This document shows positions 35,469-38,385 of a DNA stretch of 47,595 nt, one piece after another. The first letter of the stretch is position 1; each line of letters begins with the position of its first letter. The stretch is taken from the NCBI GenBank assembly GCA_029262315.1, contig JAJCZP010000014.1:1-47595 (forward strand), written 5' to 3'. The stretch is from Deltaproteobacteria bacterium (GTDB lineage: Bacteria; Desulfobacterota; Binatia; UTPRO1). Below the pieces are notes generated by a model. It was not told where the DNA came from, made no database searches, and saw nothing but the letters and a program-made list of their open reading frames with translations. Made by a program: the position numbers and the translations under genes.

Positions 35469-36599
35469 ATGGGTCCAGGAACGATCCGCGATCGGCGCGC
35501 TCCTTCCACGCCCTCGCCGCCCGCACCCGGCGTAATCGCCTATCTCGCCACCGGCGGCTTCCGAAACACGATGCGCGAGTACCTCGACTCGTGGGGCCGT
35601 GACCTGGCGGGCGCGATCACGCCGCTGGTCTACGAGGATCTCTTCCACTGCCGCATGCTCCGAACCGGGACCTACATCTTCTCCGACGTGGAACGCCTGC
35701 GACCCACCGACGCCCAGCGAGCCGCCGACATCCGCACCGCCCTGGCACGCGCCGGCCTGCGGGTTCTCAACGACCCACTCCGGTCGATGCGACGTTACGA
35801 ACTCCTGCGCGCCCTGCATCGAGAGGGCATCAACCAATTCAACGTCTACCGAGTACGGGACGACGAGCGCCCCCGACGCTTCCCGGTCTTCCTACGGATC
35901 GAGAACGATCACGGCGGCAGTCTGACGGGCCTCATCCCGACCGCTGAGGCCCTGGATACCGCGCTCCGGGAACTCCAGCGGACGGGGCGAAACGACGAGG
36001 ATCTCCTGATCACCGAGTTCTGCGACACGTCGAGTCACCATGGCGTCTACCGCAAGTACTCGGCGTTCATGATCGGCGGGCGCGTCGTGCCCGGCCACGT
36101 CTTCTACGCACACGAGTGGCTGGTGAAGTTCCCCTCGCTCCTCGAGCCGGAGATGCTTGCGGAGGAGCAACGCTACATCGATACCAATCCGCACGAGGAG
36201 CAGCTGCTCGCGATCTTCCGCCTCGCGCGCATCGACTATGGACGCATCGACTACGCCGTGCTGGATGGGACGCTGCAGGTCTGGGAGTTGAACACGAACC
36301 CTTGGATCATGTCCTATCGAGACATCGGGAGCGAAGAGCGGCTCCCAGCGCGCGTCGCCGGGGCGGCCGCACTCCGCGCGGCATTCATGGCAATCGCCGA
36401 TCAGCGTCCGCCCGCGCGCGTGCCGATCCCCCTACAAGCCGGCGTCTTCGACTCGTGGCGCGCATCGTTGCCGACCCATCTTGGGCGCGCGCTGCTCCGA
36501 CGCACCGGACTCCTGTGGCACGAAGAGACCCTCCGCACGACGCTGCTCCGACTACGAGGTCGTCAGCCGACGCCGCCGGGCGCCACGCCGTCAACGTAG
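35469..36599 (+). CDS. ATP-grasp-like protein, candidate partner of a peptide-modification locus
   Basis: A 376-residue soluble protein. The second half has an ATP-grasp-like signature: LRIENDHGGS (nucleotide-loop position, ~142-151), LLITEFCDT with E183, then RIDYGRIDYAVLDG and the metal motif WELNTNPW (D261, E273, N275, N277). ATP-grasp enzymes join a carboxylate to an amine, thiol or hydroxyl through an acyl-phosphate. No family name is recognised. It converges with the HEXXH gene, their 3' ends overlapping by 37 bases (36563-36599). That favours a shared locus but gives no evidence of co-transcription. The start is uncertain; ATG at 35571 is possible. Confidence 0.7.
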   Translation: MGPGTIRDRRAPSTPSPPAPGVIAYLATGGFRNTMREYLDSWGRDLAGAITPLVYEDLFHCRMLRTGTYIFSDVERLRPTDAQRAADIRTALARAGLRVLNDPLRSMRRYELLRALHREGINQFNVYRVRDDERPRRFPVFLRIENDHGGSLTGLIPTAEALDTALRELQRTGRNDEDLLITEFCDTSSHHGVYRKYSAFMIGGRVVPGHVFYAHEWLVKFPSLLEPEMLAEEQRYIDTNPHEEQLLAIFRLARIDYGRIDYAVLDGTLQVWELNTNPWIMSYRDIGSEERLPARVAGAAALRAAFMAIADQRPPARVPIPLQAGVFDSWRASLPTHLGRALLRRTGLLWHEETLRTTLLRLRGRQPTPPGATPST

Positions 36600-38008
36600 C
36601 GCTCGTAGTGCGCCGCAACCGCCTGCAGAACGCTGAGTTCGCGATCCCCCGAGAGGCTCCGCTCGCGCTGGATCGATCCATCGATGGCACATCGCAAGGC
36701 CGGAGCGTCGGCCGGAATCGATGCGCGCCGCACACGCGCGGCGATCGCGGCCCGGGCCTCCCGCAACTCCGCGAAGAGCCGCGCACCCAACGGCGTAAAT
36801 CGAGCTTGGGCTTCCAGCTCGCGGATCGCGAGATCGAGCTGCGCCGGGATCCGGATGACGCGGTCGGTAGCGTAGTCGCTCACCTCCGCCGGTCGGGCCG
36901 CGTCATCGTACACCGCCAACCAGAATTCGCAGACCGGAGTGTAGACGAAAAGCGCGTGCAACAAGCCACGCAATGGCCGCGGCTCGTCACGCCACGGTGA
37001 GTAGTAGCGCTCGTCGGTAAGCGCGTTCTGGGCGGGATCGAAGAACGAGCCCTCCTCTTCGATACAGAACAAACGATTGTGGTAGTACTCGTGCACGATT
37101 GCGTCAGCGAGTTCGAACGGATGGTGCATCACCCCGAGGACGAAGGCGCCGGGCAGATCGGAATGGCTGACGTTGGTGTAGCCACCAGCGCTGGCCGGCT
37201 TCAGTGGCACGACCTGCGTCACCTCGGCGAGCACAGCGAATGTCGCCGGGTCGTAGCGGGCAACCAGAGCCAATGCTCGTTCGACGAGTGGCCGATGCGT
37301 TTCCTGGTAGTCGAGCCCGGCCGTGACGGCAGCAGCCGCGAAATCGAGGCCCGGGCGGGTCAGCGCGTACGGTTGGAGAGACAACGTACATGGCCCGTGC
37401 CGTGCTACCGGACTGTGCTCGAGTCGCATGTCGGCCATCGGCATGTCGACGGCAACGCGCTGACCGGATGAAGCGCCGCCCCCCGAACGCACGTCGGCTG
37501 GCGTGATCTCCAGACATCCGCCACTCGTGCCAACGATCGACACCGGCCCGCCACCGTTCAGCACCAAACCAGTGCCAGGAAGCACGAACGGCAAGGTCAC
37601 CGTGAACGGCGTCGCGAACGTCTGGGACGCTCCCGCGAGGAAGTGCATCGCCAACGCCAATCCTTTGAACTCCTCGAGATGGCGCGTCAATGCCAGCGCT
37701 GGCGTCGGCGCATTCAATGCGCGGCAGTGCTCAGCGACGGCCGCAGGCCAACGCTGACCGGAGAGCGATGCGCCGACCAACTCGTACGCACGATGCAGCC
37801 AGAAGTACGCCAACGGATCCAGCCAGACGCGGGTGAACACGGCCGCCGGCAGTGCGACGACCTCGTCGTAGACGGCCAGGAACTCCCGCCTCCCGGCAAC
37901 CGCGGCATCGTGTCGTCGCAGTGCACGTGCGACGGCAATCAGGCCCGCCGCGCTCTTTTCCCAGCGGTCGTCAAAGACGGCGGCATCGCCGCGCAGCAGC
38001 CGCGGCAT
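36563..38008 (-). CDS. HEXXH-motif putative peptide-modification protein (alpha-ketoglutarate-type hydroxylase family)
   Basis: A 481-residue protein. Its key motif is IVHEYYHNRL, with HEXXH at residues ~306-310. It is followed by a YYSPWRDEPRPLRGLLHALF block, with the Arg and downstream His (~H351) expected as further ligands or co-substrate contacts. This matches the HEXXH putative peptide modification family (TIGR04267-like). From my general knowledge, members of this family fused to radical-SAM enzymes act as alpha-ketoglutarate-dependent beta-hydroxylases on RiPP precursors. There is no transmembrane segment or signal peptide. The start at 38008 is the only ATG near the preceding peptide gene (31-base gap); a GGAGG lies very close upstream. 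No radical SAM or protease gene is adjacent. Confidence 0.82.
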   Translation of the reverse strand: MPRLLRGDAAVFDDRWEKSAAGLIAVARALRRHDAAVAGRREFLAVYDEVVALPAAVFTRVWLDPLAYFWLHRAYELVGASLSGQRWPAAVAEHCRALNAPTPALALTRHLEEFKGLALAMHFLAGASQTFATPFTVTLPFVLPGTGLVLNGGGPVSIVGTSGGCLEITPADVRSGGGASSGQRVAVDMPMADMRLEHSPVARHGPCTLSLQPYALTRPGLDFAAAAVTAGLDYQETHRPLVERALALVARYDPATFAVLAEVTQVVPLKPASAGGYTNVSHSDLPGAFVLGVMHHPFELADAIVHEYYHNRLFCIEEEGSFFDPAQNALTDERYYSPWRDEPRPLRGLLHALFVYTPVCEFWLAVYDDAARPAEVSDYATDRVIRIPAQLDLAIRELEAQARFTPLGARLFAELREARAAIAARVRRASIPADAPALRCAIDGSIQRERSLSGDRELSVLQAVAAHYERYVDGVAPGGVG

Positions 38009-38039
38009 CGCCTCCGAGCCAGACGCCGCCGGGCGAGGC

Positions 38040-38321
38040 TCAGGTCTGTGGCTTGCCACCGGCCTTGCCGGTAGCCGTGAACTGCCGACCCCAAGGCGAG
38101 ACCGCCGCCGGGGCCTCCGGCTTCCCGGAGGCCGCCAAATTCTCGGCCCAGGACGACTGTCCTGCGGGCGCCTTACCTGCGGCCGTGTACTGCTCAGTCC
38201 ACGTGCCGCCCGCCGAAGACGCCGTCTTCGAGTCAGTCGCGCGCTCGAGCGCGCCAAGCAATGCATTCGGACGGTCCGTCATCGCGATCTTCTCTAGATC
38301 CAGGATCTTCTGCGTCTTCAT
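38040..38321 (-). CDS. Candidate RiPP precursor peptide with three W..G-K core repeats
   Basis: A 93-residue peptide. The leader (1-39) is helical and charged (MKTQKILDLEKIAMTD) and ends in SSAGG. Three copies follow of the pattern W-x-x-(Q/N)-(Y/L/F)-(T/A)-A-(A/S/T)-G-K, at residues 41-50, 58-67 and 77-86, joined by Ala/Pro/Gly-rich linkers. Trp, the hydrophobic fifth position, Ala and Gly-Lys are invariant or nearly so; the sixth position is T, A, T. A G-rich Shine-Dalgarno eight bases upstream fixes the start. The gene lies 31 bases before the HEXXH protein on the same strand. There is no signal peptide or Cys, so it is not a lanthipeptide. That it is a substrate is inference from context and repeats. 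Confidence 0.75.
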   Translation of the reverse strand: MKTQKILDLEKIAMTDRPNALLGALERATDSKTASSAGGTWTEQYTAAGKAPAGQSSWAENLAASGKPEAPAAVSPWGRQFTATGKAGGKPQT

Positions 38322-38355: not shown

Positions 38356-38385
38356 ATGAATTGGTGCTGTAAAGCCGGATGTCAA
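38356..38385 (-). promoter_or_regulatory. Candidate promoter of the precursor/HEXXH operon
   Basis: A perfect TTGACA lies on the minus strand at 38385-38380, about 60 bases upstream of the precursor ATG. The best -10 at 17-18 bases spacing (AATTCA or ATTCAT, 38362-38356) is weak, so the -35 carries most of the evidence. Confidence 0.4.

Follow-up and report, generated by a model that had tools for sequence, protein, structure and literature searches.

Within a 47,595-nucleotide contig of a Deltaproteobacteria bacterium (assembly GCA_029262315.1, JAJCZP010000014.1; Desulfobacterota, Binatia, UTPRO1), analysed here at its full length and referred to as the window, we find what is probably a small RiPP-type cassette, in which a precursor peptide with a leader and three cores would be modified on those cores by an HExxH oxygenase, with a further step performed by an ATP-grasp-like protein. 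The reading is built on gene content and comparison across genomes, and three genomes only carry the system. In the scheme that we propose, the N-terminal part of the precursor (LDLxxI...ALL) would be the leader to which the enzyme binds, while the C-terminal half would provide three cores built on the pattern W-x3-[F/Y/L]-x-A-[S/T/A]-G-K, each of which the HExxH protein, judging from its family, would oxidise using Fe(II), O2 and 2-oxoglutarate. The oxidation would most likely be a beta-hydroxylation of a conserved side chain. Since the Lys occurs in all ten cores and the aromatic residue in nearly all of them, these two are the foremost candidates; for aKG-HExxH enzymes already published, the hydroxylated residues are Asp, His, Gln and Pro, with the beta carbon as the usual site (PMC12636437, PMC13060819). 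The convergently encoded ATP-grasp-like enzyme would then probably introduce an amide or ester linkage on the peptide. Coordinates of all features are collected in Table 1.

Table 1 Features of the predicted cassette, in window coordinates
Feature	Position	Strand	Remarks
ATP-grasp-like protein gene	35469..36599	+	376 aa; convergent with the enzyme gene, whose 3' end it overlaps by 37 bases
aKG-HExxH-type peptide oxidase gene (predicted)	36563..38008	-	481 aa; TIGR04267 match
Precursor peptide gene (predicted)	38040..38321	-	93 aa; putative leader at the N terminus (residues 1 to about 39), then three core repeats
Core repeat 1, WTEQYTAAGK	38172..38201	-	residues 41-50
Core repeat 2, WAENLAASGK	38121..38150	-	residues 58-67; coordinates derived from residue 58
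Core repeat 3, WGRQFTATGK	38064..38093	-	residues 77-86
TTGACA, possible -35 element	38380..38385 (about)	-	no good -10 partner

The preliminary description of this DNA had pointed to a 93-residue peptide with three core-like repeats lying 31 bases before an HExxH gene on the same strand. Both observations hold, the gap running from 38009 to 38039 and the strand, which had been left unsaid, being the minus strand. The precursor reads MKTQKILDLEKIAMTDRPNALLGALERATDSKTASSAGG-TWTEQYTAAGK-APAGQS-SWAENLAASGK-PEAPAAVS-PWGRQFTATGK-AGGKPQT, with W-x3-[YLF]-x-A-x-G-K as its repeat unit in three copies. When pairwise BLOSUM62 scores were summed over the three 10-residue units, the peptide scored 95 against a mean of 38.7 and a maximum of 74 for 1000 shuffled versions, none of which reached the observed value; by the same kind of test, the repeats are non-random in three precursors, counting those of the related genomes described below. 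Residues shared between the repeats are encoded by different synonymous codons in 5 of 15 same-residue pairs, which indicates constraint on the peptide rather than a fresh duplication of the repeats at the DNA level. The precursors matched no known leader family, and a tblastn search of plasmids with the window precursor returned no match. Scanning 395 genomes of the phylum for the DNA-encoded pattern W-x2-Q-[FY]-T-A-x-G-K gave the window locus and a single further match, in G087, which we set aside as a chance occurrence, the motif being absent from all the ORFs listed there.

The pairing of precursor and enzyme is well supported by comparison with related genomes. Across 148 genomes of the class, full-length homologues of the enzyme occur at four loci in three genomes: the window genome, a member of the same family (G003) and a member of another family (G497), which has two. 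The check that had been suggested for the pairing, a search for precursor homologues near HExxH homologues, found a short ORF bearing the motif [FYL]xA[STNA]G(x)K immediately upstream of the enzyme gene and on the same strand at all four loci, so that a leader-and-core precursor genetically tied to its putative modifying enzyme, as expected of a RiPP pair, is found at each of them. The number of core copies varies, from three in the window and two in G003 to four at the first G497 locus (C86; one copy degenerate, LAASVK) and one at the second (C69). The G003 precursor, MSIPRLDLKAIES...DAFTASGKASGKPQVSAGWVPQFTASGKVTGKQPI, ends with a stop codon 4 bases before the likely GTG start of its enzyme, in a cassette that is split across the ends of two contigs; the C86 precursor has the four units GFPSSFSASGTK, KWPAHFRASGTK, RWPTGFLAASVK and RWPTRFVASGAK, and the C69 precursor comprises 51 residues with the single unit AAYRANGAK. 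Among the ten cores so compared, Ala and Lys are present in every one and Gly in nine, the first aromatic position is F, Y or L, and a Trp stands four residues ahead of that position in seven. A pattern summarising these features, [FYLW]xA[STNA]G(x)K, matched 4 of 2153 small ORFs at 21 loci, which are exactly the four precursors; since the pattern was composed after the peptides had been seen, this count is a check of specificity and not an independent discovery. None of the compared loci of more distantly related HExxH genes has a small ORF with the pattern.

The window enzyme, whose start is best placed at the ATG at 38008, is by sequence a member of the known aKG-HExxH family. The assignment to a TIGR04267-like family made in the preliminary description is upheld by a match to TIGR04267 with an E-value of 1e-33 and 116.8 bits (curated cut-off 40), in which residues 242-415 align to the whole of the profile (positions 1-177 of 177), while a search against Pfam, its peptidase families included, matched nothing. 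The protein contains HEYYH (residues 306-310), SPWRDEPRP (337-345) and GLLHA (348-352), and its relatives in the PDB are 8s5f (ChlH; E-value 7e-13) and 22nu, which is a radical SAM core domain-containing protein; alignment to 8s5f shows HExxH and the downstream SPWR..RP and G..HA to be common to the enzyme and ChlH. An alignment of the four full-length homologues, which are 36-48% identical, likewise shows HExxH, SPWRxxPRP and GxxHx to be conserved. AlphaFold2 models computed from single sequences reached a pLDDT of 35 for the HExxH enzyme and 38 for the ATP-grasp-like one, too low to bear on active-site geometry or peptide binding. Proteins of the TIGR04267 family are rare, occurring in 1 of 395 sampled genomes of the phylum, and scans with the enzyme gave one weak, partial match in genome contigs and none in viral contigs. 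The class also contains a second HExxH subfamily (HLSASYREA...VHEFQHNK; L015-L021, L043), present in more genomes than that of the window and with no motif-bearing small ORF close by, as well as a locus with two tandem HExxH-type stretches on the same strand (L044:2486-3920, G445 C275), again of a subfamily different from the window enzyme.

The preliminary description had taken the enzyme to stand alone. Neither a peptide transporter nor a radical SAM candidate turned up beside the cassette, and to that extent the description stands; it had missed the convergent ATP-grasp-like gene that is present both in the window and in G003. The protein that this gene encodes matched no Pfam or NCBIfam model. 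A profile built from five relatives, however, matched D-Ala-D-Ala ligases in a profile-profile comparison (hhalign) with 95.8% probability over 167 columns that include RIDY and the catalytic end E-x-N-T-N-P, whereas shuffled, reversed and unrelated controls gave at most 0.9%, and it is this similarity over the catalytic part that places the protein in the ATP-grasp superfamily and earns it the label ATP-grasp-like. A profile search of the PDB with the alignment returned non-significant matches only, to antibodies (E-values of at least 0.26) and to D-Ala-D-Ala ligases (1.7). In the window genome, a 45% identical paralogue comes directly after a gene for a PaaK-like AMP ligase (G000 contig C91, L028:6714-9006), and its surroundings hold no HExxH gene. 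A PaaK-like ligase 28% identical to the one on C91 is encoded divergently beside the C86 precursor of G497 (L041:7864-9123).

As to processing and expression, the Gly-Gly with which the leader had been said to end is particular to the window peptide, for none of the three homologous precursors has it ahead of its cores; a search for C39 peptidases (PF03412) in seven genomes (the window genome, G003, G497 and four other relatives) found none, while the control search was positive in 8 of 14 known genomes. Cleavage of a Gly-Gly leader by a C39/PCAT system is thus not borne out. Neither a dedicated protease nor an exporter was seen near the cassette, the adjoining ORFs look like housekeeping genes, and a CxxxCxxC scan near the four loci gave no radical SAM candidate, which sets the cassette apart from the radical SAM-HExxH (cyclophane) clusters. 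The TTGACA element that had been reported upstream is present, and TTGACA recurs 55-66 bases before the precursor at two of three related loci; the window copy has no convincing -10 partner, and no sigma-70-like promoter pair at the window locus passed a consensus scan. Flanking the C69 cassette of G497 are a glycosyltransferase gene of the PMT type and a gene for a flavin amine-oxidase-like protein, both pointing to the HExxH gene (L042:3088-5777); these could be tailoring genes or mere neighbours. In another genome (G044, L023:2131-4086), a 651-residue ORF, seemingly a radical SAM-methyltransferase fusion, lies near a truncated HExxH gene.

Several other readings of the locus have to be weighed. 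We consider a link between the ATP-grasp-like gene and the peptide pathway probable; that the gene is instead an unrelated neighbour, leaving a system of precursor and HExxH enzyme only, would be compatible with the rest of our proposal and is a doubtful but still appreciable possibility. Both G497 loci lack the gene, which lies on the strand opposite to the rest of the cassette, and relatives without an HExxH gene are found in a polysaccharide locus of Paracoccus, on a plasmid of Deinococcus or alone, as well as in the window-genome paralogue beside its PaaK-like ligase, for which reason the link is not certain. Against coincidence, the gene was found in 2 of 145 genomes of the class and not in the other 143, the two being the window genome and G003, both of which have the cassette; the orthologue in G003 is 50% identical, and the two genomes retain the convergent layout even though their proteins are only 45-50% identical and the outer flanks, having changed, are unrelated. 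An ATP-grasp enzyme with a multi-core precursor is also the layout of graspetides, and the Thr/Ser and Lys residues of the cores could take part in macrolactones or macrolactams that link side chains of the cores, the hydroxylase then having a tailoring role. This we regard as most improbable, for core 3 of the window and core 2 of G003 (WVPQFTASGK) lack an Asp or Glu that could serve as acceptor and the ATP-grasp protein, as noted, matched no curated family. An acidic acceptor together with an OH or NH2 donor is thus not present in each core, and we rejected membership of the graspetides.

Other alternatives concern the reaction that the HExxH protein would catalyse. Instead of, or besides, oxidising side chains, it might oxidise the backbone, cutting the chain through alpha-hydroxylation at Ala or Gly and releasing the units as C-terminal amides. 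PosC and PflC, of the same family, cut the backbone at the ARMD Ala, with an amide as the result (PMC12636437), the Ala of the cores is invariant and the Gly nearly so, and oxidative cleavage by the enzyme would explain a multi-core precursor that has neither protease nor transporter adjacent to it in a genome in which no C39 peptidase was found. PosC, however, cuts its substrate only at sites close to the C-terminal end (PMC12636437), while the window cores span half of the peptide, and members of the family more commonly hydroxylate side chains, so we hold backbone cleavage to be a serious rival but an unlikely one. An extension of the idea, in which one aKG-HExxH oxygenase would both mark and release each W-x3-F-x-A-S-G-K unit by cleavage at Ala/Gly before the ATP-grasp ligase acts on the freed units, is decidedly speculative; if true, such a marking-and-releasing oxygenase would make a protease unnecessary in a self-contained multi-core RiPP system. 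HExxH is a signature of zincin proteases too, and PflC shows hydrolysis when its leader peptide is missing (PMC12636437), yet it is very unlikely that the window protein is an ordinary zinc protease with the small peptide as inhibitor or regulator: the oxygenase model was matched far above its cut-off and no Pfam peptidase at all, SPWRxxxRP and GxxHA, shared with ChlH, are conserved downstream, and a repeated core of variable copy number suits a substrate better than an inhibitor.

The cassette offers a compact test case for target recognition, with a clean short motif in one to four copies and a single oxygenase, in a group of enzymes that has been recognised recently and whose reactions are not yet predictable from sequence (PMC13060819). 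The same precursor family lends itself to asking whether an aKG-HExxH enzyme works along a chain of cores. The cassette would furthermore add RiPP-type chemistry to a lineage known here from draft genomes, and it points to ATP-grasp proteins without a family model as possible partners.

The preliminary description regarded a stand-alone hydroxylase with a dedicated substrate as a kind of system not yet described, a view that has been overtaken by reports of PosC/PflC, PesO and BpmH, stand-alone aKG-HExxH enzymes that act on Gln, Pro and biphenomycin precursors in clusters containing other modifying enzymes (PMC12636437, PMC13060819, PMC12257519, PMC12707348). PflC and PosC of the Pseudomonas pfl and pos clusters come with one dedicated precursor and no protease gene, as here, and modify several residues per peptide, as the window enzyme would do; their precursor differs in having a nitrile-hydratase-like leader, a Gln run and a C-terminal ARMD in place of a repeated core motif, and they are accompanied by an MNIO-nitroreductase fusion, an acetyltransferase and transporters, the cluster as described having no gene of the ATP-grasp type (PMC12636437). 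PesO of the nitrilobacillin cluster is likewise a stand-alone hydroxylase of a RiPP precursor, acting on Pro, but its precursor is a different one and its partners are an MNIO and an enzyme resembling asparagine synthetase (PMC13060819). ChlH and the radical SAM-HExxH fusions (8s5f, 22nu) share the catalytic domain and motifs of the window enzyme but are described as acting on Asp and His after cyclophane formation by radical SAM (Morishita et al. 2024, as cited in PMC13060819), whereas no radical SAM gene was found with the window cassette. Graspetide clusters resemble it in the ATP-grasp-type enzyme adjoining a multi-core precursor and differ in their acidic acceptors, which not all of the cores here possess, and in the curated family models that the ATP-grasp protein of the window lacks. 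The open-access papers that were searched describe neither precursors of this motif family nor a multi-core precursor or an ATP-grasp partner for an aKG-HExxH enzyme. Compared with these systems, three things are new as far as could be found: the family to which the precursors belong, their multi-core architecture and the pairing with an ATP-grasp-like protein.
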